Origin: a virus | Length of the DNA: 33,993 nucleotides | Reading direction: 5' to 3' (one strand) | Virus record (IMG/VR): IMGVR_UViG_3300026097_000059 | Coordinates: 1-33,993 of that record | Part shown: piece after piece, positions 4,680 through 32,007 of the stretch | Layout: each line of letters starts with the position of its first letter | Position numbering within the stretch: position 1 is the stretch's first letter | Notes under the pieces: generated by a model | The model's database searches: none | What the model saw: the letters and a program-made list of their open reading frames with translations, nothing else | Told to the model about the DNA's origin: nothing | Position numbers and translations under genes: made by a program

Positions 4680-4809
4680 TCTGCAAGCTGACCTGCTTAT
4701 CGCTCGCAAGACTGTTCTAAAGGCGCTTGCCAGGGACAATGCACAAGAATACTTTGATGCTCGCGAGAAGGTACAGGAAATCGAAACCATGATTAAACTG
4801 GCCCGATGA
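4654..4809 (+). CDS. Small helical phage protein (51 aa)
   Basis: The ATG at 4654 is preceded by GGAG six bases away and lies inside the preceding gene; the longer in-frame extension is out-of-frame reading of that gene. The protein looks like one or two amphipathic helices (KEIIADLQADLLIARK, then REKVQEIETMIKLAR). It ends in an ATGA overlap with the next gene. Function unknown. Confidence 0.6.
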   Translation: MTDKEIIADLQADLLIARKTVLKALARDNAQEYFDAREKVQEIETMIKLAR

Positions 4810-5048
4810 AATACAAAACAGGATATTATGTGCCTGATTACAAACATCGGGTTCGATATAATTTTATGTCTGAAACTAAGCGTGGTCTGATTGATCGACC
4901 AAATGCAGTCAAACGTCGCAATGCAGCTATGAAATGGTGTGATGAACAAGGTATTGATTTCATATGGGATGCAGGCGAAGTCTTGTGGCGGTTTCGGTTC
5001 CGTACTGAAGAAGATGCGTTGCTCTTCAAACTAGCATGGGGCGTATGA
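4806..5048 (+). CDS. Small phage protein of the EEDAxLFKLAWG family, copy 1
   Basis: The C-terminus reads RTEEDALLFKLAWGV, preceded by AMKWCDEQGIDFIWDAG. The adjacent gene has the same layout (VEWLKENEIEFTWVGG, then SEEDAVLFKMAWGC), so the two are tandem paralogues that have diverged strongly. Two more distant relatives lie between the MoxR and metallopeptidase genes. The compact shape, with a final strand-helix unit, suggests a small globular domain. Function unknown; it is tied by ATGA overlaps to both neighbours. Confidence 0.75.
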   Translation: MKYKTGYYVPDYKHRVRYNFMSETKRGLIDRPNAVKRRNAAMKWCDEQGIDFIWDAGEVLWRFRFRTEEDALLFKLAWGV

Positions 5049-5341
5049 TGTCTGGATTTGAACCTTACCCTCCTAAACCAATACCATCTGGCATGCAAGA
5101 CTGGGGTGACGAAACCCTAATCAAGCATACAAGAGATCAAGGCTATAACTATTTTGTCGTCTACAACAATCCCAGGATAGGTTATAATCGCGTTAGCGAA
5201 ATTGAACGACGCAATATCGCGGTAGAATGGTTAAAAGAAAATGAAATTGAGTTTACCTGGGTAGGTGGACGAAGCGCATTTGAGTTTGCATTTCAGTCTG
5301 AAGAAGACGCGGTGCTATTTAAGATGGCATGGGGATGTTGA
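5045..5341 (+). CDS. Small phage protein of the EEDAxLFKLAWG family, copy 2
   Basis: Shares with the preceding gene the segments RRN-A--W, I-F-W and SEEDAVLFKMAWG, and adds an N-terminal stretch (PYPPKPIPSGMQDWGDETL). Start candidates are 5036, 5045 and 5048; 5045 gives the ATGA overlap used throughout this operon. Function unknown. Confidence 0.75.
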   Translation: MMSGFEPYPPKPIPSGMQDWGDETLIKHTRDQGYNYFVVYNNPRIGYNRVSEIERRNIAVEWLKENEIEFTWVGGRSAFEFAFQSEEDAVLFKMAWGC

Positions 5342-5791: not shown

Positions 5792-5915
5792 ATCGGTTCA
5801 CAGCCTTTTTGTGATCCTTGATATTTCTGACCGCCTTCGTCATACCACTTATTGGCTTAGGCGGTCTTTTCGTGGCCGGGAGGGCACTGTTCTTTTTCAA
5901 GTCTTTTTCACGCAT
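5778..5915 (-). CDS. Possible small basic protein downstream of the GIY-YIG gene
   Basis: A 45-residue frame starts at an ATG that overlaps the endonuclease stop (ATGCGTGA). It is very basic and Pro-rich (ALPATKRPPKPISGMTKAV). It runs through the candidate terminator and ends 14 bases inside the opposite-strand gene. Coupling to the endonuclease is plausible, but there is no family evidence. Confidence 0.25.
   Translation of the reverse strand: MREKDLKKNSALPATKRPPKPISGMTKAVRNIKDHKKAVNRSTRK
5829..5870 (+). terminator. Possible rho-independent terminator
   Basis: GACCGCC and GGCGGTC form a seven-base-pair stem with a 24-base loop (which can fold further through CCA/TGG), followed by TTTT. It lies 38 bases after the stop of the exported-protein gene, between it and the convergent homing endonuclease gene. 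The long loop and short T-run make it a weak candidate. Confidence 0.4.
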
Positions 5916-6660
5916 CGACTTTCCTATATCCTTTGAAGTCACGGCCTTCCTTGAACGCCTTCCATATACCACCATATGATATATTGTTCTCGCGGCACCA
6001 AGTCCTGAGTCCAGTCACTTCGAATGTTCTGCCTGTATTTACGTCAAGTATGGTAATCTGTTTGGCATTGTGCGGCATACAACCCTTTTCAAAACCATAG
6101 CCGTTGAAACCACGCTGCAACGCTGCCTCGCTCATCTTTTGTCTTGTTTTAGATGAAAATGTCCGACCTTTGAGCGCTGCTGATGTTTTTGCTTTGGACT
6201 CTGCCGAACGTCTTTTACCTGTGTTCTTGGCTACACGTTTTGCAATGGTGTCAGCGCTTTGCGGACCGCGCTCAATATTGCGGCGCCCAATTTCACGACG
6301 CTGCTCTTCAGTCCATATCTGCTTGCCCTTGTTCCAGGGAACACGACCCTTGCCAGCCTCGCCGATACGTTGGCGGACTTCAGCAGACTGTCGACCACCA
6401 TCACCACACTCTTCTTTGAGGTTGGCCCATCCGTCGCTCTCAACGATATCCCAGAGCTCAGTATAGTACAAACCTTGCTCACGTACCTCAGTTTTATCTT
6501 GACATTCGCAAAGAATTTCAGTATCGTAGTCATAACCGTGTTTCTCTAGATGCGCGCGCCAATATACGCCACTCCCGTGGTAAGTATGTGGGTCTTGACT
6601 TGTGTAACCGAGATATTTCAGTCCAGTTGTTCTGTGTGTCTTGACATATAAGTAAAGCAT
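5908..6660 (-). CDS. GIY-YIG homing endonuclease
   Basis: This is a free-standing mobile endonuclease of 250 residues. The N-terminal GIY-YIG-type nuclease domain reads LYVKTHRTTGLKYLGYTS with the following HGSGVYW. The middle carries NUMOD3-type DNA-binding motifs (GRVPWNKGK, TEEQRREIGRRN, SAESKAKTSAALKGR, SSKTRQKMSEAA). The C-terminus resembles an intron-encoded-nuclease helix-turn-helix repeat (VTGLRTWCRENNISYGGIWKA). It is opposite in strand to its neighbours and sits between two complete genes, so it is not inside an intron. A TATAAATA late promoter and an AGGA ribosome site precede the ATG. Confidence 0.9.
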   Translation of the reverse strand: MLYLYVKTHRTTGLKYLGYTSQDPHTYHGSGVYWRAHLEKHGYDYDTEILCECQDKTEVREQGLYYTELWDIVESDGWANLKEECGDGGRQSAEVRQRIGEAGKGRVPWNKGKQIWTEEQRREIGRRNIERGPQSADTIAKRVAKNTGKRRSAESKAKTSAALKGRTFSSKTRQKMSEAALQRGFNGYGFEKGCMPHNAKQITILDVNTGRTFEVTGLRTWCRENNISYGGIWKAFKEGRDFKGYRKVDA

Positions 6661-8691: not shown

Positions 8692-9003
8692 ATGGCGCGA
8701 CCCAAACCACGTGTTTTGTTGGAGCAAACCGACAAGAACTTCCGAAGCGAGCAGGTGCTTGAAGCAGACGCAATCTATGCTGTATTCTTTCAAGGGTCGC
8801 CAGTTAATCTCAAAAGCTTCAACAGCCTTACAGACAGCCCTGGAGCCAAGTACAAGAAAACCAGCTTCAGCAATGCCGCGCATTGTTTTAATCTTGCTGA
8901 CAGGTTAAACAAGAAATTCAAAACAAATGAATTTAGTGTTGTAAAATTCTCAGCAGAAGGAGCGCAAAAAATTGAAAGGCCTGACAAAAATAATTGGTTC
9001 TAA
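8692..9003 (+). CDS. Phage protein whose 3' end is duplicated beyond the HNH gene
   Basis: The 103-residue protein has a globular look (VLEADAIYAVFFQGSPVNLK, SNAAHCFNLADRLNKKF). ATG 8692 is chosen over ATG 8680 because GGAG lies six bases before it. The last 35 codons are noticeably A/T-rich, like the HNH gene that follows, and a second version of the same segment (NLCERLNAKFNTDDFTVI) exists downstream of the HNH gene. The current C-terminus may therefore have arrived with the mobile element. The stop overlaps that of the convergent HNH gene. Function unknown. Confidence 0.7.
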   Translation: MARPKPRVLLEQTDKNFRSEQVLEADAIYAVFFQGSPVNLKSFNSLTDSPGAKYKKTSFSNAAHCFNLADRLNKKFKTNEFSVVKFSAEGAQKIERPDKNNWF

Positions 9004-9755
9004 CCTTTTTTACATTTGATACCATGCCATCTTGTATACATGGCTACACTGTATTCTCCTCCACAGTTCTCGCATACTTTTCTTGGATGAACTATACCTT
9101 TTTTTGCGTCGCTCATTAATTTTCTAGTATTCTCAGAACGTGTGATGCCAACTAATGATTCGGATACTGCTTTTTTATGTTGTTCACTAAGTTTACGACC
9201 GCGCATCTTCGACGAAATAAGTGCTTTTGTTTCTTCAGAATGTGTCAACCCAGTCATGCCGCCGCCTTCATATTTTCTTCCTTTGTTCCATGGCACTCGA
9301 CCAATAACAGCATCTGATATTTTTTTCTTAGTTTCATCTGAATGTTTGTAATTGGTTTTTCGTTTCGGAAGTGATTTGAGAGTTTTACTAATTTTTTCTC
9401 TTATTTCAGGTCGTTTCGATGGATTATCATTTTTCATTATTTCACTATATTGATGTTTCAATGATTCATACATCTTAGAATTTATTTTATTTTTGTTCAT
9501 AATGGCCATCCCAAATGCTGCCTTAACCATTTTATATTTGTGATTTTTATTTGACACCATTTTAACTAAAAGCAAGTGACATATAAAATGTTCTCTAGCA
9601 GTTAATTTGATTATGTTATTTTTTGAATCATCTCCGCCAAGAGAACGAGGAATTATGTGATGTTTTTCACCATATTCATTTTCTAATACAGAAGACGATA
9701 ATCTTTTATTAACAATCTGATAATACCATTTTGTATATTTGTTTTTAAGAAACAT
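9000..9755 (-). CDS. HNH homing endonuclease
   Basis: This 251-residue protein has an N-terminal HNH nuclease (EKHHIIPRSLGGDDSKNN, then LTAREHFICHLLLVKM), three or four NUMOD3-like DNA-binding repeats (GRVPWNKGR, HSEETKALISSKMRGR, SEQHKKAVSESLVG, RSENTRKLMSDAKKG) and a C-terminal zinc-ribbon-like CENCGGEY with a later Cys. It is much more A/T-rich than the flanking genes, a sign of transfer. It is oriented against its neighbours, ends exactly on the stop of the upstream gene, and has its own TATAAATA promoter and AGGAG ribosome site. Confidence 0.92.
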   Translation of the reverse strand: MFLKNKYTKWYYQIVNKRLSSSVLENEYGEKHHIIPRSLGGDDSKNNIIKLTAREHFICHLLLVKMVSNKNHKYKMVKAAFGMAIMNKNKINSKMYESLKHQYSEIMKNDNPSKRPEIREKISKTLKSLPKRKTNYKHSDETKKKISDAVIGRVPWNKGRKYEGGGMTGLTHSEETKALISSKMRGRKLSEQHKKAVSESLVGITRSENTRKLMSDAKKGIVHPRKVCENCGGEYSVAMYTRWHGIKCKKG

Positions 9756-10625: not shown

Positions 10626-10988
10626 ATGTCGACCGAAACCCTCAGTATCCTCGCCGAATATCCTGCCGTGCTGGTACTGGAAATCCCCGCAACCATGGAT
10701 ATTCAGCTGACCAACGACAAAGGGTATGCGCGGACTGCCCCGTTTGCGATTTACCTCAAAAGCTTTCCCCGTGACCGTTACGAGTTCATCCGCAGTTTCA
10801 CCATCGGGTGCGATGGAGACAATCCTGAAAATGTTTGGGCATATGGCAACGGCAGTATGCTCACTGCTGAAGAGCGTCGTCAAGAGACTGCTTTTGGTGT
10901 CGAACTTGGACAGGTGATTCGGGTCGAGGGCCGCGAGTTTCGGGTCGAGCCCGACCACAACCACAACATCAAACTGACGGAAGTATAA
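10626..10988 (+). CDS. Hypothetical phage protein (120 aa)
   Basis: AAAGGAG eight bases before the ATG and a strong promoter suggest early, high expression. The protein is probably beta-rich (AVLVLEIPATMDIQLTND, then QVIRVEGREFRVEPDHN). No family recognised. A two-base gap separates it from the next gene. Confidence 0.7.
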   Translation: MSTETLSILAEYPAVLVLEIPATMDIQLTNDKGYARTAPFAIYLKSFPRDRYEFIRSFTIGCDGDNPENVWAYGNGSMLTAEERRQETAFGVELGQVIRVEGREFRVEPDHNHNIKLTEV

Positions 10989-10990
10989 TA

Positions 10991-11242
10991 ATGAATACTT
11001 TTTTCAACAATCTTTATCAAAATGGCGAAGGCTGCACTGTCACTGGGTTTTACCGTGAGCAACCCTTTCATGGCAAAATCAGTAATGTTCGCAGCACTTA
11101 TGGTGGTGGGTTGAACGTTTATGTTGAACTGGACCATGAGTTCACGATCGAACGCCATGAACGTGATTCTCTTGTGCTGGACGGCGAAGAGTTGTTCAAC
11201 GGCAGTGGTTCGTGCACTAAAAATCTTCACGTTTATTTCTGA
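10991..11242 (+). CDS. Hypothetical phage protein (83 aa)
   Basis: Probably a small beta-barrel: GCTVTGFYREQPFHGKISNV, then LNVYVELDHEFTIERHE. The layout (a variable domain with charged strands) is reminiscent of small phage-encoded nucleic-acid or protein binders, but no family is recognised. It ends inside the first 63-bp promoter repeat. Confidence 0.65.
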   Translation: MNTFFNNLYQNGEGCTVTGFYREQPFHGKISNVRSTYGGGLNVYVELDHEFTIERHERDSLVLDGEELFNGSGSCTKNLHVYF

Positions 11243-11299
11243 TTTTGGTTGACATCACCAAGACGTTTTGCTATATTGGTCTTGTAAGCAAAGGAGACA
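11237..11299 (+). repeat. 63-bp direct repeat (promoter/RBS cassette), copy 1
   Basis: Sixty-three bases from TTCTGATTTTGG to AAGGAGACA are identical to bases 11981-12043. The unit contains a complete sigma70-like promoter, transcript leader and ribosome site, and both copies end just before an ATG followed by GCTT. It overlaps the last six bases of the preceding gene. Confidence 0.9.
11249..11277 (+). promoter_or_regulatory. Sigma70-like promoter inside repeat copy 1
   Basis: TTGACA and TATATT with a 17-base spacer, a near-consensus promoter; AAAGGAG follows at 11290. Confidence 0.8.
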
Positions 11300-11302
11300 G
11301 AC

Positions 11303-11578
11303 ATGGCTTTCCAGATTCACGCAGAAAACATCAGCGGTGCGTTCCAGGAGAAGGACACTGGTAACTGGTTCGAGTTCAGCGAGAATCCTGAAATGCTTCT
11401 CGCTCCGCCTGCACATGGCGGACGCAACATTGTTTTCCCCCACGTTATCTGGACTGGCGATGGCTATCGCTATGCCAAAGTTGGCAAAACTGTTGTTCAC
11501 ATCATCACCGACGAAACTGAGTTTGGTTGGGTGGTTGAAAAGTGGTACATCAAAAATCTCCGTGAATATGCAAAATAA
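11303..11578 (+). CDS. Hypothetical phage protein (91 aa)
   Basis: Directly behind repeat copy 1. The protein is rich in aromatic residues and probably beta-stranded (GNWFEFSENPEMLLAPPAHG, then HIITDETEFGWVVEKWYIKN). No family recognised. It is probably expressed early and strongly. Confidence 0.7.
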   Translation: MAFQIHAENISGAFQEKDTGNWFEFSENPEMLLAPPAHGGRNIVFPHVIWTGDGYRYAKVGKTVVHIITDETEFGWVVEKWYIKNLREYAK

Positions 11579-11589
11579 AGGTTAAGACA

Positions 11590-11976
11590 ATGCACAGTAT
11601 TCGCGACATCCTGTACACACAACGAACTGGATTCTTTTCTGGACGCGGCACAACGCTGGGTGATGCAGTCATGTTATTGGCGTTCGGACCGCCAGTTGAT
11701 CCGGTTGCCCTTGATCTTTACTATGATGTCTTCGGCACCACCAAGTGGACAAAATATCTGCGTTATTTTGTCCGGCATTATCGTTGGCTGTATGCTGACA
11801 AAATCAAGAACCGTGACAGCATCATGATGATTCAGCATACGGTTTTGAATGAAACATTCGAACTGCCGCTTGAAGCCTATACTGCAATCAGGATTGACAC
11901 ATTGCTGGCCTACAGGGGTTTGATCAACTGCCCTTGGGTGAGCATGAATGGCGGTCATAACCGAATCCCATCGTAA
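11590..11976 (+). CDS. Hypothetical phage protein (128 aa)
   Basis: Probably helical and rich in Tyr and Trp (FGTTKWTKYLRYFVRHYRWL), with a final GLINCPWVSMNGGHN. It follows the preceding gene by 11 bases and is the last gene before repeat copy 2. No family recognised. Confidence 0.65.
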   Translation: MHSIRDILYTQRTGFFSGRGTTLGDAVMLLAFGPPVDPVALDLYYDVFGTTKWTKYLRYFVRHYRWLYADKIKNRDSIMMIQHTVLNETFELPLEAYTAIRIDTLLAYRGLINCPWVSMNGGHNRIPS

Positions 11977-11980
11977 AAAG

Positions 11981-12043
11981 TTCTGATTTTGGTTGACATC
12001 ACCAAGACGTTTTGCTATATTGGTCTTGTAAGCAAAGGAGACA
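11981..12043 (+). repeat. 63-bp direct repeat (promoter/RBS cassette), copy 2
   Basis: Identical to copy 1 over 63 bases, 744 bases downstream. It starts four bases after the preceding stop codon. One extra base after the repeat shifts the distance to the following ATG. Confidence 0.9.
11993..12021 (+). promoter_or_regulatory. Sigma70-like promoter inside repeat copy 2
   Basis: Same TTGACA-N17-TATATT promoter as in copy 1, with AAAGGAG before the ATG at 12048. Confidence 0.8.
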
Positions 12044-12047
12044 AGAC

Positions 12048-12266
12048 ATGGCTTCCAACCTCGAAATGCTCGCTGCACTGAACCCGAACTGCAAAACTGA
12101 TGCACTTCCTGGTGGCGAGTGGAAAGTCACCTATGCTAGCATGTTCACTCACCTTACTGGCGATGAGCGCAAAGAACTTGCTCGTGGCACCTATGGTGAG
12201 ATGATCAAGAAGATGGCTCTTCTGCCCAAAGGCAAGTATGCAGATGTCAAGCTGGAGCCTGCATAA
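12048..12266 (+). CDS. Small phage protein (72 aa)
   Basis: Helical small protein (LEMLAALNPNCKTD, then TGDERKELARGTYGEMIKKM). Transcribed from repeat copy 2, and its stop overlaps the next start as TAATG. No family recognised. Confidence 0.7.
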   Translation: MASNLEMLAALNPNCKTDALPGGEWKVTYASMFTHLTGDERKELARGTYGEMIKKMALLPKGKYADVKLEPA

Positions 12267-12478
12267 TGGCTATTAAGTCAACCCGTCACGCACCTGGCAG
12301 CTACGTCGTTACTGACGGAGTCAATGAAGTCGACGTCTACAAGATTGAACTTGCGGACGGCGAGTGGTGGATTGCCAGCTGCTTCGTCAACCACAGCGAT
12401 CCTGTTTCCACGTACCGTGAAGCACGGGAAAACGCTGTCTACATCCTCGAGAACTGGAAAGAGCTCGCAGCAATATGA
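12266..12478 (+). CDS. Small phage protein (70 aa)
   Basis: Strand-rich first half (GSYVVTDGVNEVDVYKIELA, GEWWIASCFVN) and a helical end (YREARENAVYILENWKEL). TAATG and ATGA overlaps link it to both neighbours. Function unknown. Confidence 0.7.
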   Translation: MAIKSTRHAPGSYVVTDGVNEVDVYKIELADGEWWIASCFVNHSDPVSTYREARENAVYILENWKELAAI

Positions 12479-12798
12479 CCCGCAACGAATATATTGCACT
12501 GATCCTGCGCGATGACGCTGTTGGTACCCGCGCTGTTGGCAAAGCCCTTGTTCACCTTTTCCGTCGGCAGACGGAGGACGAGCAGGCCAGCAATGACACC
12601 CGTCACCACAACATGCGGGGCTTCACAGGTGCGGATGCTCGCCGCGGCAGCATTACCGCCAAGTATTTTCTCAAGCACGGTGACCTGCTTGACTGGCAAC
12701 TTGAATACTGGCGCGCTCCCAACCGTCGTGGTGTTCCTCGGCTAGGCAAGTATTACGGCCAGATCGCAGAAGAAGCACAACGGAAGGAAACGGCATGA
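12475..12798 (+). CDS. Phage protein with the RGFTGADA-GS-AK motif
   Basis: The 107 residues contain HHNMRGFTGADARRGSITAK followed by LLDWQLEYWR and GVPRLGKYYGQIAEEA. A similar arrangement (G-F---DA--GS--A, then Q---------L-KY--Q) recurs in phage and plasmid proteins as a small helical module of unknown role (from memory). The N-terminus (NEYIALILRDDAVGTRAVG) is probably a helix. Coupled by ATGA overlaps to both neighbours. Confidence 0.7.
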   Translation: MTRNEYIALILRDDAVGTRAVGKALVHLFRRQTEDEQASNDTRHHNMRGFTGADARRGSITAKYFLKHGDLLDWQLEYWRAPNRRGVPRLGKYYGQIAEEAQRKETA

Positions 12799-13250
12799 AC
12801 TTCAATCTTGATTATCGTGACTACGGCCGCCGTGATGAAGAGCGTGGCGATGGTGAATGGGATTATAGCTGGTCGGAAGATCACGACTATCATTACAATG
12901 GTGCTCACATTGTTGAAGAAGGATATTCAGATGTAGGTTTGTTTCCGGGAGAACATGAGCCCCGTCTAGGTGATCGAATCTTCGTAGTCTATGTCAGCTA
13001 TGATAGTGGCGATAGCTTCGGTAACGAGCGAGGCCGGCGAGTACATTTGTGGGCATTCACTGATGCTGAGCGCGCTGCTCGGCTGTGTGACCTGGTCACA
13101 CTGGATGCTGAAACCACTCCTGATTACGACTATGATCACAAACCTTTGATGTTCGAAGGGGTACCGATTTCTGTCAATGAATGGAAGGGCTATTTCGAGC
13201 ACTTCAACCATGCTGATTATGAATCTCTTGAAATCAAGCGCAAAAGGTAA
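12795..13250 (+). CDS. Acidic phage protein (151 aa)
   Basis: The N-terminal 40 residues are extremely rich in Asp, Glu, Tyr and Arg (DYGRRDEERGDGEWDYSWSE), possibly disordered, followed by a folded region (PRLGDRIFVVYVSYDSGD and VHLWAFTDAERAARLCDLV). A strongly acidic N-terminus would suit DNA mimicry or protein binding, but this is only a suggestion. No family recognised. Confidence 0.65.
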   Translation: MNFNLDYRDYGRRDEERGDGEWDYSWSEDHDYHYNGAHIVEEGYSDVGLFPGEHEPRLGDRIFVVYVSYDSGDSFGNERGRRVHLWAFTDAERAARLCDLVTLDAETTPDYDYDHKPLMFEGVPISVNEWKGYFEHFNHADYESLEIKRKR

Positions 13251-13255
13251 ATCCA

Positions 13256-13663
13256 ATGGAAAAGATTGTAAAATCTGTGCCTGCATATGTTCAGCGGCGG
13301 CTTGATGCCGAAGCTGAAGAGCAGGCGCAGCGGAACGCCGCCCTTGAAAATCGGAAACGGATTCGGCAGACCGAAATGATAGTTGACCGTGTCGGTTACC
13401 AGCCGCCTGAAACTGACAATTGGAAAACTCGTGTCGAGCGGGCTTTGCTCAAATACAAGATGGGTGGAGACGGAGGCTGGGATATTCTGCGTTACACCAA
13501 GCAAGGCCGTGTTGAAATCGATCCTGTGATTTTCGGCACCCTCATGCAAGACTGGTATCCTAAAAACCCTGATTATATCATCTTGGAAATGGCCAAGATG
13601 GGTAAACTGTCCTATAAGATGACTGACGAAGAGAAACTTGCTCAACTTGAAAAAACAGGTTGA
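13256..13663 (+). CDS. Hypothetical phage protein (135 aa)
   Basis: N-terminal helix rich in Ala, Glu and Arg (RRLDAEAEEQAQRNAALENR), then a mixed domain ending YKMTDEEKLAQLEKTG. Its stop codon overlaps the -35 box of the next promoter. Function unknown. Confidence 0.65.
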   Translation: MEKIVKSVPAYVQRRLDAEAEEQAQRNAALENRKRIRQTEMIVDRVGYQPPETDNWKTRVERALLKYKMGGDGGWDILRYTKQGRVEIDPVIFGTLMQDWYPKNPDYIILEMAKMGKLSYKMTDEEKLAQLEKTG

Positions 13664-13688
13664 CATCACCACCGTTACCGCGTAAAGT
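13660..13688 (+). promoter_or_regulatory. Sigma70-like promoter for the MoxR gene
   Basis: TTGACA and TAAAGT are separated by 17 bases. The block GGTTGACATCACCA is shared with the 63-bp repeats, but the downstream half differs. CAGGAG lies seven bases before the ATG at 13727. Confidence 0.6.
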
Positions 13689-13726: not shown

Positions 13727-14839
13727 ATGGCAGATATTGTTGACCAGCATCAGGTACGCCTGAGCGAAGCAAAGCGCTACATCAAGCACGCCAGTGTCAA
13801 GCGCAAGCGCCCCGTGTTTATTTGGGGCCCCCCGGGTGTGGGTAAATCCGATGTCGTTGAGTCCATCGTGAAGGACGCGGAGGCCGAGGGCAAGGACGCC
13901 AAGCTTTACGACATGCGTCTCAGCATGTGTGAGCCCACTGACATCATGGGTATTCCCTACTACGACGCAACCGCAGGCACCATGAAGTGGGCGCCGCCCG
14001 CTCTGCTTCCCAAGCCGGAAGATGCTGAGCGTGACCTGGTTGTGCTCTTCCTGGACGAAATGAACGGTGCTGCACCGGCTGTGCAGAGCGCTGCATACCA
14101 GTTGGTTCTCAACCGCCGCGTGGGTGAATACGTTCTGCCCGACAACGTTGCTGTGGTTGCTGCTGGTAACCGTGAAAGCGACAAGGGCGTTACCTACCGT
14201 ATGCCCAAGCCGCTCAGCAACCGCTTCATCCACTTTGAAGTCAAGGTTCACTTCGATGACTGGGCCGAATGGGCAACTGACAACGGTGTCAGCGCTGACG
14301 TAGTTGGTTACCTGACCGCCAAGAAGAACGACCTCTGGAAGTTCGACCCGCGCTCGCCGGAACATGCGTTCCCCACTCCGCGTAGCTGGGCATTCGTTTC
14401 CGATATCCTTGGAGACTCGGATGACTTCACTGAGGGTGAGATCACTGACATGATCATCGGCACCATTGGTCAAGGTACGGCGCTCAGCTTTGCTGCACAC
14501 CGTAAGACCAGTGCACTACTGCCCGACCCGACCCTTATCCTCAAGGGCCAGGTCAAGGAGCTCAAGACCAAGGAAATCAGCGCAATGTACTCGCTGGCAA
14601 CCAGCCTGGCATACGAGCTCAAGGCACAGAACGAAGAAATCGGACGTTCGATCGACAACGAAAAATTCCAGGAGTATATCGACAACACCATTGGCTTCTG
14701 GATGGATCACTTCGAGCCTGAGATGGTTGTGATGAGCTTCCGTATGGTCATCAAGTATGGCATCAAGATCGACATGAAGCGCATCAAGAACTGGAAGGTG
14801 TTCTACGATCGTTACGGCAACCTGGTCCGTGCCGCGTAA
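13727..14839 (+). CDS. MoxR-type AAA+ ATPase
   Basis: MoxR ATPases act as chaperones, usually together with VWA-domain proteins, to remodel or mature protein complexes. The 370 residues show Walker A GPPGVGKS (34-41), Walker B VLFLDE (106-111), sensor-1 Asn148 in AAGNRESDKG and an arginine-finger region LSNRF (163-167). The codons use more G and C than those of most neighbours, in keeping with high expression. A strong terminator follows directly. The metallopeptidase/VWA protein two genes later is the likely partner. Comparable pairs occur in other large phages, but their role is not established. Confidence 0.9.
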   Translation: MADIVDQHQVRLSEAKRYIKHASVKRKRPVFIWGPPGVGKSDVVESIVKDAEAEGKDAKLYDMRLSMCEPTDIMGIPYYDATAGTMKWAPPALLPKPEDAERDLVVLFLDEMNGAAPAVQSAAYQLVLNRRVGEYVLPDNVAVVAAGNRESDKGVTYRMPKPLSNRFIHFEVKVHFDDWAEWATDNGVSADVVGYLTAKKNDLWKFDPRSPEHAFPTPRSWAFVSDILGDSDDFTEGEITDMIIGTIGQGTALSFAAHRKTSALLPDPTLILKGQVKELKTKEISAMYSLATSLAYELKAQNEEIGRSIDNEKFQEYIDNTIGFWMDHFEPEMVVMSFRMVIKYGIKIDMKRIKNWKVFYDRYGNLVRAA

Positions 14840-14860
14840 GCGACACCGCTTACCAACTAA

Positions 14861-14886
14861 GTGGGGCCCTTTGGCCCCACTCTTTT
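14861..14886 (+). terminator. Rho-independent terminator
   Basis: GTGGGGCC, a CTTT loop and GGCCCCAC form a perfect eight-base-pair stem followed by TCTTTT, 22 bases after the MoxR stop. Confidence 0.85.
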
Positions 14887-14889
14887 CAT

Positions 14890-15318
14890 ATGATCGAATC
14901 CTTTGAATACCTGAATTATGCCTTGGAGAATTCTGCCTTGAGTGATGTGCGTTTACGCCAATGGGAAAAACTATACCCAGGCTGCACAGAGCGTTTCGGT
15001 GAAATCTTCAATACACAGTTACCAACAACGGCTGACGTTGCCAGATGGAAAATGAGTTGGTACGAAACAACCACAAACTACATGGTATTGGAAGATGCCC
15101 AGCCGTCAGAGCTTGTGGTCAATCCAGGCATCAAGGAAGAAATTTACCAGACATGTCATCGTCTAGGTATACATCCCTACTTCTGGGAATATTGGACACA
15201 TCGAGAAACACTATGGTTACCAGACTTAGATCGTGTTGAGACTGCTATTGAACCCAGAGTGAGCTTTTTTGAAGAACAAGACCTGGTGATGTTCAAACTT
15301 GCCTGGAGAAATGAATGA
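14890..15318 (+). CDS. Phage protein, distant EEDAxLFKLAWG relative, copy 3
   Basis: The C-terminus reads FEEQDLVMFKLAWRNE, matching the end of the two small paralogues at 4806-5341, and the middle has GIHPYFWEYW where they have GIDFIWDAG or EIEFTWVGG. The N-terminal half (ALENSALSDVRLRQWEKLYPG) is different. The ATG lies directly behind the terminator with no clear ribosome site, so transcriptional read-through or a missed promoter is needed. Function unknown. Confidence 0.6.
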   Translation: MIESFEYLNYALENSALSDVRLRQWEKLYPGCTERFGEIFNTQLPTTADVARWKMSWYETTTNYMVLEDAQPSELVVNPGIKEEIYQTCHRLGIHPYFWEYWTHRETLWLPDLDRVETAIEPRVSFFEEQDLVMFKLAWRNE

Positions 15319-15614
15319 GTCGTGATGGTAAATACAGTAAAGAAGCGCTTATAGAAGTGTTTGGTACGCCCAACCCATCACCTGACACAGTAACACGTTG
15401 GCGTTGGTCATGGAAACACCACCGTGGCCGCGTAAGAATCAACAACTTCAACAGTGCAATCAGGATAATGCGAGAAGCAGGTGTTGACCCACTGTTTTAC
15501 CAGATGGGCGCTGACATAGAGGGCCAAGTTGACGATGCGGCCGAAGTCTACTACATCATCTTCTACAAAGAAGAGCACGAAGTTTTCTTCAAGTTACATT
15601 CAGGTATATCTTGA
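15315..15614 (+). CDS. Phage protein, distant EEDAxLFKLAWG relative, copy 4
   Basis: Starts in an ATGA overlap. It ends FYKEEHEVFFKLHSGIS, a degenerate version of the family C-terminus, and has GVDPLFYQMG where copy 3 has GIHPYFWEYW. The first half (PSPDTVTRWRWSWKHHRG) resembles the middle of copy 3 (TTADVARWKMSWYETT), supporting local duplication. Function unknown. Confidence 0.6.
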   Translation: MSRDGKYSKEALIEVFGTPNPSPDTVTRWRWSWKHHRGRVRINNFNSAIRIMREAGVDPLFYQMGADIEGQVDDAAEVYYIIFYKEEHEVFFKLHSGIS

Positions 15615-15639
15615 CAAGCGACACATATTACCTTATCAT
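15611..15639 (+). promoter_or_regulatory. Sigma70-like promoter for the metallopeptidase gene
   Basis: TTGACA and TATCAT with a 17-base spacer; the -35 overlaps the preceding stop. AGAGG precedes the ATG at 15666; an ATG at 15661 leads only to a two-codon frame. Confidence 0.7.
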
Positions 15640-15665
15640 AGAAACGTAATCAACAGAGGTATGAC

Positions 15666-17024
15666 ATGACCCAAAAAGCCAATGAAGACCTGAAACGCCA
15701 CGAAGGCAAAGAATACATGACCATGGAGATCACAGACGCCGTTATGAATCAGGCGCGTGAGACTCTTATCAAGGCACGTATGGGTCTGCTCTTCAAGCAC
15801 CCGTTCTTTGGTCAGCTTGCACTCAGGCTCACGCTGACACCAGCTGACCGCAAGTGGTGCCCTACCGCTGCAACTGATGGCAAGAAGTTCTATTACAATC
15901 CTGCATTCATCGCCAACCTGGACGACAAGGAAAATGTATTCCTGGTCGGGCATGAGCTTGGTCACTGCATTTACGAGCATATGATTCGCCGTGGTGGTCG
16001 TGATCCCAAGCTCTATAACATCGCTGGCGATTACATCATCAACAACATGCTCGACACTGAAATGGTCCAGGGCAAAGACTATGCCCGCGTGATCACCTAC
16101 GTCAAGCCGTTCCTTGACCACAAGTATGATGGCTGGTCCAGTGAAGAGGTTTACGACGACCTGCTTGAGCAACAGCAAAACGGTGGTAAGCCTGAAGAAG
16201 ACGGTGACCTGATCGACGTTCACATTGACATGACTGCTGGTGGCGGTGATGGTGATGGTGATGGTGACGGTGTTGAGGTTGAAGGAGCCGGAGCCGGTCA
16301 AGGCGACGAAGACGGTGACGGCAAGGGTCTTGCTGGTAAGCCGGGTCCGATGAGCGAAGAAGAGCAGAAGCAGCTCAGCAACGAGATGAAAGACGCTCTT
16401 ATCCAGGCTGCACAGAGCAGCGGTGCTGGTAATGTTCCTGGCGACATCAAGCGTATGATCAAGGATCTGCTTGAGCCTGAAATGGACTGGCGTGAAATCA
16501 TCCGCGCACAGATTGAGAGCTCGCTCAAGAGCAACTTCACGTTCATGCGTCCTAATCGTAAGGGTTGGCACATGGGCGCGGTACTGCCCGGCATGGACCG
16601 CGACATGATGATCGACATCGCGCTTTGCATTGACACCAGTGGCTCTATCAGCCAGCAGATGCTCACTGAGTTTGTCAGCGAGGTTGCTGGCATCATGGAG
16701 CAGTACGAAGACTATCGTATCCGCATCTGGCAGTTCGATACCCGTGTTTACGGCTACGACGAGTTCACGCATGACGATGGTCGTGAGATCACTGAGTACG
16801 AGATCAAAGGCGGCGGTGGTACTGATTTCATGGCCAACTGGACCTACATGAAGGAAAAGGAAATCGAGCCTGATCAGTTCATCGTGTTCACTGACGGCAT
16901 GCCTTGCGGTAGCTGGGGTGATCCTGATTACTGTGACACTGTATTCCTGATCAACCCGGTTTATGGTAAGCCCGAAGCACCGTTTGGCCAGACTGTTTAC
17001 TATGAGCGTGGAAAGACTGCCTAA
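15666..17024 (+). CDS. Metallopeptidase-like protein with C-terminal VWA domain (DUF2201-like)
   Basis: The 452 residues combine an N-terminal zinc-peptidase-like region with GHELGHCIYEH (His96, Glu97, His100) and a C-terminal von Willebrand A domain with the MIDAS motif DTSGS (323-327), GGGTD (383-387) and TDG (409-411). Between them is an acidic, Gly-rich linker (191-222) encoded partly by GGTGAT repeats. The architecture matches proteins annotated as VWA-like DUF2201 predicted metallopeptidases that pair with MoxR ATPases, so the MoxR gene upstream is the likely partner. Its target, a phage assembly protein or a host protein, is unknown. Confidence 0.85.
   Translation: MTQKANEDLKRHEGKEYMTMEITDAVMNQARETLIKARMGLLFKHPFFGQLALRLTLTPADRKWCPTAATDGKKFYYNPAFIANLDDKENVFLVGHELGHCIYEHMIRRGGRDPKLYNIAGDYIINNMLDTEMVQGKDYARVITYVKPFLDHKYDGWSSEEVYDDLLEQQQNGGKPEEDGDLIDVHIDMTAGGGDGDGDGDGVEVEGAGAGQGDEDGDGKGLAGKPGPMSEEEQKQLSNEMKDALIQAAQSSGAGNVPGDIKRMIKDLLEPEMDWREIIRAQIESSLKSNFTFMRPNRKGWHMGAVLPGMDRDMMIDIALCIDTSGSISQQMLTEFVSEVAGIMEQYEDYRIRIWQFDTRVYGYDEFTHDDGREITEYEIKGGGGTDFMANWTYMKEKEIEPDQFIVFTDGMPCGSWGDPDYCDTVFLINPVYGKPEAPFGQTVYYERGKTA
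16245..16268 (+). repeat. Short tandem repeat GGTGAT x4 inside the VWA gene
   Basis: Four in-frame hexamers (the last GGTGAC) encode Gly-Asp repeats in the linker between the peptidase and VWA domains. Unit number could vary without a frameshift. Confidence 0.75.
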
Positions 17025-17307
17025 GGTGAAGTGGGTACGTCATAAAGTTATCAATGATGATGACTTCAAGCTTCTTCGTGGTAGTCCATCCATGGAGAAG
17101 CTTCAAAAAAATCGTCTCGTGTTCACGCTCGATCCGAATGACACACATCCGAGCACAAAAGAGCTAGGCCTTTATGAAACCAAGGGCCTAGTTTATATTC
17201 GAAATCTGTCCGGCCGTAAAGACACGGTTGAAGTGATGTTCGAGAAAGAAGAAGATTTAGAGATGCTCGAGCAGTATCTTACACAATACAAGATGATCAT
17301 GGAATAA
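17002..17307 (+). CDS. Hypothetical phage protein (101 aa)
   Basis: Overlaps the end of the metallopeptidase gene. ATG 17002 is chosen, but GTG 17026 just after that stop is also possible. The protein carries DTVEVMFEKEEDLEMLEQYL at its C-terminus, loosely like the EED-helix end of the small paralogue family, and ETKGLVYIRNLSGR before it. No family recognised. Confidence 0.6.
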   Translation: MSVERLPKVKWVRHKVINDDDFKLLRGSPSMEKLQKNRLVFTLDPNDTHPSTKELGLYETKGLVYIRNLSGRKDTVEVMFEKEEDLEMLEQYLTQYKMIME

Positions 17308-22056: not shown

Positions 22057-22573
22057 CCCAATACAAGACGCTGGTGCGCTTGAACGTTTCTTTGCTGAAA
22101 GTGACGTTGAAAACAGTACGAGCCTGGATACGCTAGGGTACAACAAACGTCCCAACAGCCTAATGGTGCTCACTATGGATGGTGATGTCATTGCTAGCCT
22201 GTGTTATGTTCATGATTTTTCTGAATACTATACCAACACATATCGTGCCTTCACACGCACGACGACGCTCTCTCGCTACCGAGGAAGGGGGGTGCCAGCC
22301 CAACGTAACTGCGCAAGCGCGGCGGGTATTAGCGCACACACAGCACCGTTTCAGGTTGACTACGCATTGCTGAATGGCGCTGATCATGTGTTGTTCACCA
22401 CCAATGCAACAGGCGGAATGTCCAGCTCACAGAGACTGGACCGCTACCTACGTCTCATTGAACCGCATGACCCACGGTTCAGTTATTGGGATGAAGGTGA
22501 AATATACGGTGTGCGACAGACGGTGTGGCGTCTCAACTTTCGCGACATTGTCAATATGCGTTATCCGATCTGA
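22037..22573 (+). CDS. GNAT-like acyltransferase (tentative)
   Basis: The 178 residues have DGDVIASLCYVHDFSEYY, then RTTTLSRYRGRGVPAQRNCA, where the RGRG loop resembles the acetyl-CoA pyrophosphate-binding turn of GNAT enzymes, and a final DEGEIYGVRQTVWRLN. The fold assignment rests on this pattern only. Last gene of the rightward operon; its end overlaps the convergent oxygenase gene by 23 bases. Confidence 0.5.
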   Translation: MKIKIYNPIQDAGALERFFAESDVENSTSLDTLGYNKRPNSLMVLTMDGDVIASLCYVHDFSEYYTNTYRAFTRTTTLSRYRGRGVPAQRNCASAAGISAHTAPFQVDYALLNGADHVLFTTNATGGMSSSQRLDRYLRLIEPHDPRFSYWDEGEIYGVRQTVWRLNFRDIVNMRYPI

Positions 22574-23210
22574 CTGCATACTCTCCGTAGCGGGCATCAC
22601 TGCGCTCTAAGAGAGCTTGATGGCGCGCATCGTCAATGATTCCTACCACACTCAATAAGATCTTTTCACCTGTGGGCGACAGCGCACCATGGGTGGTTTT
22701 GCTATTGTTGAAGGCGAACACTCGGGTCTGGTCTGGAATGTCAACCACCCGTCGCTGATCACCATCCCGCACCCAAAAGGTATTGTGCTGTGGGTCAGTG
22801 AGATAGATCAGATAGCGGCGGGGCTCTTGCGGCTCATTTGGATCGTAAGTGTCACGATGCTCAGCAATCTCACCCAACTGACGCATCATGCCTGCAACAC
22901 CAATCTCACGAAATGGCAACCGCTCTATGACTTCGAACAGGCCAGGAAAGCGCGCTGTAAAGCCTGGTGCATAACGTGTCATATTGTTGGGGTTATACTG
23001 GTAACCTTGGGCTTGCCAGCTAGCATAGGCGGCGACACTACGCCAATCAGTTACTGGTTGTCCTGATGCTACCAGAGCCCACTCGTGCTCTCCGTCACGA
23101 AAATTCCACTCACCTAAATCTTCGATTCGATTCTGTTCAAACCAGTCAACAATCTCATCTTGATCCGGAAGATCAAACTCGACGTCAATGGGCAGATATA
23201 AGATTGACAT
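22551..23210 (-). CDS. 2OG-Fe(II) oxygenase-like protein
   Basis: The 219 residues contain an iron-binding HRD (His118, Asp120) followed by RRYLIYLTDP, and NNSKTTHGALSPTGEKILLSV with a distal His174 about 54 residues later, the HxD-H facial triad of non-haem iron hydroxylases. The usual 2-oxoglutarate-binding Arg seems replaced or shifted (Lys183). The substrate may be a protein or a sugar of the leftward island. Last gene of that island; it overlaps the sulfotransferase gene by 26 bases. Confidence 0.75.
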   Translation of the reverse strand: MSILYLPIDVEFDLPDQDEIVDWFEQNRIEDLGEWNFRDGEHEWALVASGQPVTDWRSVAAYASWQAQGYQYNPNNMTRYAPGFTARFPGLFEVIERLPFREIGVAGMMRQLGEIAEHRDTYDPNEPQEPRRYLIYLTDPQHNTFWVRDGDQRRVVDIPDQTRVFAFNNSKTTHGALSPTGEKILLSVVGIIDDARHQALLERSDARYGEYAVRSDNAY

Positions 23211-23901
23211 CTTTTATTATTCCTTGTTCAACAGTTATATTAGGATTTTCTAGAAAATGTCTATCTATTTTTTCAATCAAACTGTCAAAAAGGTCATTAT
23301 AATTGCAAATAACCTGTTTCTTATCAGGAGATCTGTAATAGGTATAATCGATATTTTTATCGAACAAAAAATAGTCAGACATTTTTTCTTTTGGATCGTC
23401 TTCATAAAAGATATTCAAATCATATTTGATTTTCAATTTGTTATTCATTAATTTATCAATATTATTGATATGCTCAAAATATAATTGATATACTCTTTTT
23501 TCATCTAACGAAATGCTTCCTGGATTTTCAATATAATTTTCATAACACCAGGTTGATGATTGATAGGCATATGCCCAACTAATCACAGTATCAACTATAT
23601 TGCGCCGCATTAATCTTACAAATATGGTATTATTTTTTATTACTTCAAGCATGTCATTATCGATATTCATTAAATGAGTAATATGCGACATCATTACACA
23701 ATGCTTAGATAATTGTATATCTTTTGTAATTTTTTCGAATGTTCCTCTTGTATGAAAATGCCTATTATAAATCTCTGGACCAAAAGGTTCATTATATGAT
23801 AAAACTTCACCTTCACCATATTTGTCAAATAACTGGTCAGTCAACCATTTGTGTAATACAGTTGAACCAGACCTAGGATGCCCTACCAGATGTATTTTCA
23901 T
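23185..23901 (-). CDS. Sulfotransferase-like protein
   Basis: Sulfotransferases move sulfate from PAPS to sugars, proteins or small molecules. The 238 residues begin LVGHPRSGSTVLHKWL, the 5'-phosphosulfate loop PRSGST (8-13), and later have FVRLMRRNIVDTVISWAYAY, where Arg and Ser match the 3'-phosphate-binding region. The gene is clearly A/T-rich. It overlaps the preceding radical SAM gene by four bases. Confidence 0.8.
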   Translation of the reverse strand: MKIHLVGHPRSGSTVLHKWLTDQLFDKYGEGEVLSYNEPFGPEIYNRHFHTRGTFEKITKDIQLSKHCVMMSHITHLMNIDNDMLEVIKNNTIFVRLMRRNIVDTVISWAYAYQSSTWCYENYIENPGSISLDEKRVYQLYFEHINNIDKLMNNKLKIKYDLNIFYEDDPKEKMSDYFLFDKNIDYTYYRSPDKKQVICNYNDLFDSLIEKIDRHFLENPNITVEQGIIKDVNLISAH

Positions 23902-25157
23902 TTCTTAATCCAAGGATCTGGCGTTGCATCGTAATATTCCGAAAACTCAGGAAAATGCTCGACCAGATTGGTATTGCGCACCTGATCATATTTCTTGAGT
24001 GTTTTCATACCTTCCCAGAAGTCAGCCTCACTGTCCTGTGGGCTCTCAAGAATCTTGATCATGCGCTCGATGTTGTTGAGATCTTCCCTCACAATGACGT
24101 GCTCACCTAGCTTTTCTAGATATTGCTGTTTGATGTCAGACGGTAGGTTGATAGCACGCCATTTGCGAGGATTGGTGACCAGATTGTTCCATGAAATAAA
24201 CTTTGGGGCAATGCCAAGATCGTGATATAGGTAATCGTATATGTCATCAAGGTATCCGATGTTGAGCATCTGTGTTGCTACCACGAAGCTATTGGTGATG
24301 TGAGGATGATCCTTGTAGATGCGCATGTGACGATCAAACGTCTCCCAGTTCAAACCACTACGCACATAGCTGCCACGTTCATAGACACCATCAATGCTGC
24401 ACACCATGCTGAGGTGTCGGAAACGGTGCGCATTGTCAAGCACAATCTCAGGGACACGAGTGCCATTTGTGATGATGGTTAGATTGAGATTGGCAGCATT
24501 TGGGTTTTCAATGAACCTCTCAAACAGTTCAATGAAGTTGGGATGGATCAAATTTTCACCACCCACAAGGTTGAATTTTTGAACGTTGCTGATAATCTTA
24601 TCGATCTCATCAAAATATTCGTCTTTGTTGTCATCAGTGAACGGATTGATTTCAACCTTCTTGTTGGGGTTATTAGAGAAATATCGTTTTTCTTCAGCTG
24701 CGATTTTGCTTGAAGCACTGCTACCACACATGATACATTTGAGGTTACATATATTTCCCAATACCTTGAAGTTCACATAGAGCAAGTCGCTGTACTCAAA
24801 AGTTTCTCCACTGAGGTGTTTTTCGATATTGGTTTCTACTAGCTCATTGTCGCCATAATGCTTGAACTCTTGTACCCGCCTGCTGGTGATACCACTATGA
24901 TGGTTGCTGATACATTGTGAACAGGCGTGCTTGGTAAACTCTGAGAATTTTTCTGGATCGCCTGTGAGCATGTCACTTCGAACCTGCTGCATTTCAGGTG
25001 TATTGAAGAACTCGATGGGTGTCATCTCTGTGGTCTTGAACTTGCTGTCACGATGAACCTCACCAATACAACACACACGGTAAAACCCGTCTGCTGTATG
25101 CGCCATTTGAATGAATGGGTCAACGCACCATGTCTTTTTTTCAATATCAGATGTCAT
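23898..25157 (-). CDS. Radical SAM protein with N-terminal auxiliary-cluster (twitch-like) domain, A
   Basis: The radical SAM motif is CNLKCIMC (Cys137, Cys141, Cys144), followed by LVGGENLIHP in place of the common GGEP. The N-terminal 130 residues carry extra cysteines (WCVDPFIQMAH, FYRVCCIGE, HACSQC), the pattern of N-terminal twitch-domain radical SAM proteins thought to hold an auxiliary iron-sulfur cluster. At 419 residues it appears full length. Reaction unknown. ATGA overlaps join it to the sulfotransferase and the 296-residue protein. Confidence 0.88.
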   Translation of the reverse strand: MTSDIEKKTWCVDPFIQMAHTADGFYRVCCIGEVHRDSKFKTTEMTPIEFFNTPEMQQVRSDMLTGDPEKFSEFTKHACSQCISNHHSGITSRRVQEFKHYGDNELVETNIEKHLSGETFEYSDLLYVNFKVLGNICNLKCIMCGSSASSKIAAEEKRYFSNNPNKKVEINPFTDDNKDEYFDEIDKIISNVQKFNLVGGENLIHPNFIELFERFIENPNAANLNLTIITNGTRVPEIVLDNAHRFRHLSMVCSIDGVYERGSYVRSGLNWETFDRHMRIYKDHPHITNSFVVATQMLNIGYLDDIYDYLYHDLGIAPKFISWNNLVTNPRKWRAINLPSDIKQQYLEKLGEHVIVREDLNNIERMIKILESPQDSEADFWEGMKTLKKYDQVRNTNLVEHFPEFSEYYDATPDPWIKK

Positions 25158-26044
25158 TGAATTATTTCTACCTTATCAATTGTTTGGTGATTGACTAGCT
25201 CATTAATAACGTCGTCGATATCATGTATTTCTGTTAGGGCTGCGACTGGAATGTAACCGATAGCGTTTTTGGGGTCGCCTTTGGTAAATCCTAATGCTCC
25301 AAGATAGTTATCGTTTTGATCCCACCATGAGTCCATGGCTGTTAAAAAATTGTCAACCTTGTAAGGCTGTGTATTGTGAAAGTAGAGTGCGAAGTCTGGA
25401 GAATAATAACGCAATGGTCGAATGTTATCTTCTCCAACAACGTCATCACCGTCTTTGAAAACATCATACAGTGGTTTGCCTACTTCACAATAGTTGATGT
25501 AGACTTCGCCAAATTGACGATGTAGAGTGAAATGTTGGTAGTCTGTACCAAGCAACGGCACTCGTTCACGATTTTTGAATCGACACACAACACGTGGAAA
25601 GTAGTTTTCTCTTCCTGACGTGTTGTAAAAATTTTCAGCTCTGTGTATAAGAACATTGTATCTTTCCAACGCTGCTCTTACCTCGCTATTTGCCATTGTC
25701 CAAAATGAACCTGGATTGAGAACACCACCTCTCAATGTTTCAAAATAATGATGAAGAACGTTCAATCTTTCTTGCGACATTCCAATTTCAGCTGATTCTA
25801 AAATTCCAGCATTTGCTTTATTCAATCTTGCAATACACAAATTTATTTCAGATACAATGTGTTCTTCGGTCCAGACATTGTCTGGAAAATTATAGAAGCG
25901 ATCTTTTTCGTAAATTTCTGGTTCAAACATACATTGATAAGACAGCAATTGAGCCCAACGATTTGATATGTCGTTATTGTATGTTTCATAATCAAGATGA
26001 TATGTGCTATCTAAATTGTTTTTGAATATTACCCTAAACTTCAT
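25154..26044 (-). CDS. Unknown protein between radical SAM genes (296 aa)
   Basis: The ATG at 26044 overlaps the preceding stop (ATGA) with GGGA upstream; a start at 26056 would add four residues. The protein is rich in Tyr, Phe, Asn and Asp (NRWAQLLSYQCMFEPEIYEK, then FTLHRQFGEVYINYCEVG and YYSPDFALYFHNT). I recognise no domain. Its fixed place between two radical SAM genes makes it a candidate partner, carrier or substrate-binding protein. Confidence 0.75.
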   Translation of the reverse strand: MKFRVIFKNNLDSTYHLDYETYNNDISNRWAQLLSYQCMFEPEIYEKDRFYNFPDNVWTEEHIVSEINLCIARLNKANAGILESAEIGMSQERLNVLHHYFETLRGGVLNPGSFWTMANSEVRAALERYNVLIHRAENFYNTSGRENYFPRVVCRFKNRERVPLLGTDYQHFTLHRQFGEVYINYCEVGKPLYDVFKDGDDVVGEDNIRPLRYYSPDFALYFHNTQPYKVDNFLTAMDSWWDQNDNYLGALGFTKGDPKNAIGYIPVAALTEIHDIDDVINELVNHQTIDKVEIIQ

Positions 26045-30124: not shown

Positions 30125-30221
30125 AGTTAAATGGGTCCTGTTTCTTGTATTCTTTCAATTCTTTTTTTCGGCGACGTTTAAATTTAGCAATTATCCACCA
30201 TTCTTTTATTTTACGAAACAT
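30117..30221 (-). CDS. 34-residue basic mini-protein, QDP[FY] family copy 1
   Basis: The start is coupled to the methyltransferase stop (TGATG) and the end overlaps the SGNH gene start. The sequence opens MFRKIKEWWIIAKFKRRRKK and closes ELKEYKKQDPFNYE: a basic, Trp-containing probable helix and a short acidic tail. A second gene in this island encodes a relative ending AKQDPYIYD at a similar coupled junction. Two independent copies with the same ending and the same kind of overlap argue for real genes. Function unknown. Confidence 0.7.
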   Translation of the reverse strand: MFRKIKEWWIIAKFKRRRKKELKEYKKQDPFNYE

Positions 30222-31961: not shown

Positions 31962-31978
31962 ATTGATTCCTTTGATTT

Positions 31979-32007
31979 AATCTAGCTTACCTTGACTGAT
32001 ATGTCAA
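31979..32007 (-). promoter_or_regulatory. Sigma70-like promoter inside the tailoring island
   Basis: On the minus strand TTGACA and TAGATT are separated by 17 bases, 18 bases before the glycosyltransferase-like ATG. The -35 box overlaps the stop codon of the 29-residue peptide gene. It would drive the genes from the glycosyltransferase-like one through to the oxygenase. Confidence 0.65.

Follow-up and report, generated by a model that had tools for sequence, protein, structure and literature searches.

The window analysed here is a 33,993-base virus record of IMG/VR (IMGVR_UViG_3300026097_000059), on the plus strand of which four open reading frames (ORFs) follow one another in the order MoxR, S1, S2 and VWA, i.e., a MoxR-type AAA+ ATPase, two small proteins marked by the motif FKLAWG, and a protein that joins a putative metallopeptidase domain to a VWA domain with a metal-ion-dependent adhesion site (MIDAS). 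The family, the gene order, the intact ATPase, zinc and MIDAS motifs and the separate transcription signals are established. We consider it rather probable that the locus encodes a phage-borne MoxR AAA+ chaperone and VWA cochaperone, the VWA partner carrying an N-terminal zincin-like metallopeptidase domain, with the mechanism and the accessory role of S1 and S2 set out below. The features are as follows.

13660-13688, plus strand: sigma70-type promoter-like site of MoxR (TTGACA-17-TAAAGT, 10/12)
13727-14839, plus strand: MoxR-type AAA+ ATPase, 370 amino acids (aa); Walker A GPPGVGKS at about 13826-13849
14860-14881, plus strand: terminator-like hairpin 3′ of MoxR, 9 bp stem
14890-15318, plus strand: S1, FKLAWG-type, 142 aa; start inside the T tail of the hairpin
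15315-15614, plus strand: S2, tandem paralogue of S1, 99 aa; ATGA overlap with the S1 stop
15611-15639, plus strand: sigma70-type promoter-like site of the VWA gene (TTGACA-17-TATCAT, 11/12)
15666-17024, plus strand: metallopeptidase (DUF2201_N) and VWA (DUF2201) protein, 452 aa
15951-15965, plus strand: HELGH, H96-E97-x-x-H100 (residues 96-100), with D122 as candidate third metal ligand
16632-16646, plus strand: MIDAS motif DxSxS, D323/S325/S327, completed by T386 and D410
16963-17307, plus strand: small conserved gene overlapping the VWA 3′ end, of a family kept in 76/80 VWA loci
4806-5048 and 5036-5341, plus strand: two more FKLAWG-type ORFs, distant from MoxR, without the FGT/WKxxW part

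The MoxR protein contains the Walker A, Walker B and Arg finger of a P-loop AAA+ ATPase, and its motifs GPPGVGKS (Walker A), FLDE and SNRF are nearly all invariant among 85 sequences. It matches AAA_5 above the curated cut-off and phrog_1297, labelled 'ATPase', at 7e-92. Its scores against AAA_3, which we take to be the Pfam model associated with MoxR, and against bpMoxR are 24.7 and 18.3 bits, respectively (cut-off 27 in both cases), and a sequence search of solved structures gave no match at E 0.01.

The VWA protein matches PF13203 (DUF2201_N, 'putative metallopeptidase') over residues 34-299 at E 6e-43 and PF09967 (DUF2201, 'VWA-like') over residues 318-444 at E 5e-18, both above the curated cut-offs. 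It also matches phrog_1314 at 3e-114, the label of which, 'HNH endonuclease', is a misfit, the matching domains being DUF2201; this label is repeated in many phage records, e.g., NC_019401.1 GAP32_211 and NC_008720.1 gp25. A sequence comparison with solved structures found nothing better than E 0.2. The predicted structure of the whole protein is of middling quality (predicted local distance difference test, pLDDT, 68). The VWA fold of its C-terminal half is clear (VIA-align Z 10.7, root-mean-square deviation 3.3, 162 aligned); the N-terminal half is barely covered by the VIA-align comparison, and its fold has a weak likeness to selecase (Foldseek E 0.1; phmmer E 0.67).

Conservation of the active site was counted in 116 VWA sequences, reduced to 96 distinct ones once identical ones were removed. 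H96, H100 and D122 are each present in all 96, as are the MIDAS residues D323, S325, S327, T386 and D410, and E97 and H105 are each present in 95, suggesting that H96, H100 and D122 (or H105) bind a metal. Retention of the catalytic Glu in 95 of 96 sequences is the pattern that would be expected of an active peptidase. The sole E97 exception is found in Agrobacterium phage Atu_ph07 (NC_042013.1, 202253-203542), which has HQILH for HExxH, with the His ligands and the MIDAS intact.

When viral contigs were scanned with the VWA protein, 112 relatives were obtained, the best 80 of which were kept and 79 used for the gap count (for model A3, L001, L002, L005 and L054 were left out and 77 were thinned to 38). 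In 79 of these 80 loci, MoxR precedes VWA on the same strand, the 80th contig beginning at VWA. The same order on one strand is seen in 9/10 relatives on bacterial contigs or metagenome-assembled genomes, and the tenth contig starts in VWA. A tblastn search of 50,697 named phage records found VWA relatives in 776 of them and MoxR relatives in 816, which are two separate counts, and the counts per host genus are almost equal. All 16 named phages that we opened hold both genes. The pair is adjacent in eight of them (N4, Phosso, GAP32, RaK2, CR9, D491, RHph_N38 and Atu_ph07), lies on one strand with intervening genes in six (G7C 1, Axy12 2, SCTP-2 2, PA5oct 4, Pag-Yong1 5 and phage G 9) and on opposite strands in two (V18 and BIS47). 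Because the genes stay together in a phage even when they lie apart, their distribution argues for MoxR and VWA acting as a functional pair.

The transcription signals were compared over 56 distinct MoxR-VWA gap sequences from the VWA scan. A VWA promoter-like site scoring 11 or 12 out of 12 is present in 50/56 distinct loci, vs. 17/1313 random windows of the same contigs and 5/560 shuffled gaps; the site upstream of MoxR scores at least 10/12 in 55/56, and the 60 nt 3′ of MoxR have a more stable fold than shuffles (z below −2) in 51/56. Counted in the region alone, promoter-like sites show no excess (5 vs. 4.1 expected from shuffles); what puts the promoters beyond chance is not their number but the fact that relatives conserve them at the same position. 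Among neighbouring genes, a strong site (at least 11) precedes the exonuclease in 36/41 loci and one family in 4/31, all others having 0 or 1, and the small gene 3′ of VWA lacks a strong promoter, with a site of at least 10/12 in just 2/58. From the conserved promoters and the hairpin after MoxR, MoxR is thus predicted to be a transcription unit of its own, with VWA opening the next.

The first-pass annotation had read the locus as a MoxR-VWA pair of the bacterial chaperone kind with separate promoters, a terminator after MoxR and a zinc site in the VWA protein. The domain matches and the conserved order bear out the pair, conservation of the signals in relatives confirms the promoters and the terminator, and the HELGH site at residues 96-100 is intact. 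A MoxR without VWA had been named as speaking against a pair; among the loci of this MoxR family with room for both genes, none was found.

Whether S1 and S2 belong to this pair is a separate matter. The two proteins are only weakly similar to each other (BLAST E about 0.03), and together with their relatives they constitute a single family with the common motifs E[IV]FGT..P....V.RWK..W and F[YF]KEEH.V.FKL, only the C-terminal part of which is shared by the two distant FKLAWG-type ORFs of the window. A scan by MoxR gave 11 close relatives with MoxR identities of 69-100%. In all 10 contigs of this clade that extend past MoxR, S1 and S2 directly follow it, and VWA comes next in all 9 that reach so far. 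Of the ten, L141 represents the population of the window itself, and two others (L144 and L145) are near-identical, leaving about eight independent lineages. In the VWA scan, by comparison, S1 and S2 are missing from 77/79 loci, where the gap is −55 to 250 nt and no match to the S1/S2 family occurs at E 0.01; the two loci with a wide gap, 827 and 838 nt, encode a VWA protein identical to that of the window in one case and 82% identical in the other. A mere local insertion, seen only in L002 and L003 of the VWA scan, was considered and dropped, since the MoxR scan shows S1 and S2 to be fixed in the clade; the exact patterns of the VWA scan had favoured the other clade. Since 77/79 loci and N4 have the pair without them, S1 and S2 are, judged from these sequence comparisons, not parts of the core machine. 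The four-gene order claimed by the first-pass annotation therefore holds within the clade but not outside it, and its proposal of S1 and S2 as general adaptors or clients is not supported by the same loci.

Within the clade, the hairpin after MoxR is found in 10/10 loci (z −1.5 to −5.3), the VWA promoter at 10/12 or better in 9/9 and the MoxR site at 9/12 or better in 7/10; in L147, the VWA promoter-like site overlaps the assigned start codon, and that start is probably wrong. No promoter-like site was seen upstream of S1 in the window, nor in 9/10 clade loci, and no Shine–Dalgarno sequence was seen before S1 in the window. S2 in turn overlaps the S1 stop. The expression of S1 and S2 would be low and coupled to MoxR. 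Read-through past the hairpin is plausible because several clade hairpins (L144-L147 and L151) lack a good T run. We therefore regard S1 and S2 as probably clade-specific accessories made by MoxR read-through.

Both small genes evolve fast under constraint. Identities to the proteins of the window within the clade are 29-54% for S1 and 36-49% for S2, and their nonsynonymous divergence (dN) is 0.41-0.66 vs. 0.09-0.20 for MoxR and VWA, i.e., about 3-6 times faster. The ratio of nonsynonymous to synonymous polymorphism (pN/pS) is 0.36-0.61 in frame and about 1 in a shifted frame, indicating in-frame purifying selection. That S1 and S2 are neutral passengers, without any tie to the machine and simply caught as a cassette between terminator and promoter, is a possibility of some weight, although we would not expect it. 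Unrelated genes occupy the same place in other phages (four in PA5oct including a homing endonuclease, one homing-type endonuclease in G7C and nine genes in phage G), and the G+C content of S1 and S2 (0.436 and 0.460) is below that of the flanks (0.557 and 0.525). However, passengers would not be expected to show purifying selection, nor to be retained in every contig of the clade with MoxR identity falling to 69%.

At the other extreme, S1 and S2 may be clade-specific adaptors or clients docking on the MoxR-VWA machine, which we hold to be rather unlikely. The two are held between MoxR and VWA in all ten contigs while the region just upstream of MoxR turns over: nine plus strand ORFs of this hypervariable stretch (10626-13663) are found in 0, 2, 0, 0, 2, 0, 0, 0 and 2 of the 10 contigs. 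Scans with S1 and S2 made without MoxR return solely clade contigs (10/10 and 9/9), the S1/S2 model finds one pair apiece and no more on three long clade records (159, 168 and 56 kb), and the high dN would suit a part that faces variable targets. However, genes downstream of VWA are equally kept (7/7 or 8/8 contigs), so that retention may be plain synteny, and the machine lacks S1 and S2 in 77/79 loci of the VWA scan and in N4. In addition, a record in which MoxR was not found encodes proteins with the shared C-terminal motif, which in the S2 model forms a strand and a helix rather than a free tail. A more specific form of this idea is in our estimate unlikely: S1 and S2 would be an adaptor pair, evolving fast and coupled to MoxR, that was added to the machine in one clade of T4-like large phages and hands it changing host or phage targets, with the hairpin keeping the amount of the pair below that of the motor.

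The predicted fold of S2 is helix-helix followed by beta-alpha-beta-beta-alpha (pLDDT 84, predicted template modelling score 0.71, from 9 sequences), the FKLAWG C-terminus forming its last strand and helix, which disfavours that C-terminus as a free tag. A regular-expression count of FKLAWG tails over the loci gave 45 vs. 55.75 in shuffles, i.e., no signal. With the S2 model, Foldseek found no match below E 0.1 in the PDB (best 0.22) or BFVD (best 0.13), and S1 and S2 match no Pfam, PHROG, NCBIfam or PADLOC model. A defence-system reading was rejected, PADLOC returning nothing for VWA, S1 and S2 and only weak matches for MoxR (DolB 5e-6 and MkoA 9e-4).

The S1/S2 model gave a single marginal match (E 0.0046) on seven other records, suggesting a subfamily with no clear copy elsewhere. 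Looser relatives do occur: one is located 1 kb downstream of VWA in L090, a locus with MoxR and VWA side by side, and the 149 kb phage record of L088 (L088 5617-6159), in which MoxR was not found, contains five FKLAWG-type matches, one strong and four weak. The FKLAWG family may thus be dispersed and multi-copy. Small genes elsewhere had been named beforehand as speaking against the proposed scheme; this applies to FKLAWG-type genes, which occur at 4806-5341 and in the 149 kb record, but not clearly to the S1/S2 subfamily.

In the mechanism that we propose, MoxR would form a hexameric, ATP-driven ring. As in NorQ-NorD, the MIDAS domain would be the site by which the VWA protein docks on this ring, and the pull thus generated would enable the metal-binding domain to work on a bound phage protein. 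The most likely action would be limited cleavage or remodelling in particle assembly, after Iyer et al., who proposed virion assembly plus proteolytic processing for the phage MoxR-vWA pair (PMC7824862, the accessible part). S1 and S2, as tandem paralogues fixed between MoxR and VWA in one clade, would be translated together, by coupling, from MoxR transcripts that read through the hairpin. Their level would be below those of the MoxR and VWA proteins, and in that clade alone they probably assist the machine or its client. With modest confidence, assembly or processing appears to be the most likely role of the pair, because in GAP32 and RaK2 the pair lies directly 3′ of virion structural genes and the record of the PA5oct MoxR bears an ESI-MS/MS (electrospray ionization tandem mass spectrometry) note.

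Several points weigh against this assignment. The ESI-MS/MS note of PA5oct stands on an exonuclease too. As Atu_ph07 keeps the His ligands and the MIDAS but carries Gln for the catalytic Glu, cleavage would not seem to be required everywhere. Genes of dTMP or dCTP metabolism lie within about 7 kb of the pair in 9/17 loci (the window and 8 named phages), which do not point to an assembly role, although this is a raw count in which four of the nine belong to one family. According to the accessible part of PMC4193335, N4 transcribes its pair as middle, not late, genes. Promoter type gives no timing, and an early or late assignment from it was rejected, since the major capsid gene of one relative (G002) is also preceded by a strong sigma70-like site; in each of the three long records, the T4 late motif TATAAATA occurs less often than in shuffles (22 vs. 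53, 4 vs. 23 and 21 vs. 35).

Some of these points would suit a different function: rather than a protease, the VWA partner would be a cochaperone that loads or holds metal, perhaps on behalf of a phage metalloenzyme in nucleotide metabolism. The metal ligands H96, H100 and D122 are invariant even where the catalytic Glu has become Gln, and dTMP/dCTP genes lie near the pair. NorQ-NorD offers a precedent, loading iron into nitric oxide reductase (PMC13036017, in the part available), and the 2007 phage genome paper (PMC2147016, likewise in part) termed the pair a 'MoxR-type metalloprotein chaperonin'. However, 95 of 96 sequences retain the Glu, as an active peptidase would show, and the neighbour count is a raw one in which 4/9 loci are from Schitoviridae. 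We consider this function improbable and retain action on a bound phage protein during assembly or processing as the preferred reading.

MoxR proteins with a VWA cofactor in a chaperone role are known from RavA-ViaA and from the ATV p618 pair. The VWA partner of ATV lacks a peptidase domain, according to the accessible part of PMC7824862, and the jumbo-phage MoxR-vWA pair treated there (Iyer et al. 2021) has the same two proteins with the same metallopeptidase-VWA fusion, whereas S1/S2, the hairpin/promoter boundary and the Gln variant are features of the present analysis. As far as the accessible parts of PMC13036017 go, NorQ-NorD is likewise a MoxR-like AAA+ protein with a VWA partner, but it is a separate family, and no metallopeptidase domain is mentioned for it there; Foldseek matches to the VWA model include a NorD chain (rank 47, E 0.2). 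N4 gp24/gp25, described as core genes of N4-like phages in the available portions of PMC4193335 and PMC2784036, are a homologous pair in the same order (phmmer E 1e-35 for MoxR and 9e-40 for VWA) with HExxH and DxSGS kept. N4 differs in having no gene between the two and a dCTP deaminase directly after them, and identity in such phages is about 28% or less. The closest named phage pair found is gp149/gp144 of Pseudomonas phage PA5oct (VWA 45% identity), with an exonuclease upstream as in the window, but with three unrelated ORFs and a homing endonuclease between its members. As regards essentiality, the parts of the CRISPRi-ART paper (PMC11879866) available to us do not mention phage N4, MoxR or gp24. 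With the pair reported in 2007 in phage 0305phi8-36 (PMC2147016, in part), among the N4 core genes and in jumbo phages in 2021, the MoxR-metallopeptidase/VWA pair is already known. As far as could be seen, the variant with a fixed S1-S2 pair is new, although it is not a new kind of system; the literature searched showed nothing on S1 and S2, though, being nameless, they were not sought by name.

The genome carrying the window is, by inference, that of a large T4-like phage, since longer relatives encode T4-type capsid and portal proteins. Elsewhere, the window encodes a 5′-3′ exonuclease and matches to thymidine kinase, peptide deformylase, S-adenosylmethionine (SAM) synthetase, dihydrofolate reductase and thymidylate synthase. 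A cargo island of low G+C content occupies the minus strand at 22551-33948; it encodes a radical SAM match together with related ORFs, as well as a carbamoyltransferase and a protein with a weak match to sulfotransferase. Inside a plus strand gene block, two minus strand ORFs (5908-6660 and 9000-9755) encode NUMOD3 proteins that are likely to be homing endonucleases, and neither is matched in 10 contigs of close kin. In two of the long records, minus strand ORFs of 752 and 749 aa (G001 near 102935 and G002 near 115664, respectively) look ClpA-like by eye and have strong sigma70-like sites.

The MoxR-VWA pair is among the core genes of N4-like phages and occurs across large phages, and it is widely mislabelled 'HNH endonuclease'. 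The clade of the window offers a handle on it, namely two extra genes tied to the pair and usable as candidate partners, and the natural Glu-to-Gln form of Atu_ph07 separates metal binding from cleavage. Together, the S1-S2 clade and the Atu_ph07 form make the question of whether this machine cuts, remodels or loads metal directly testable.

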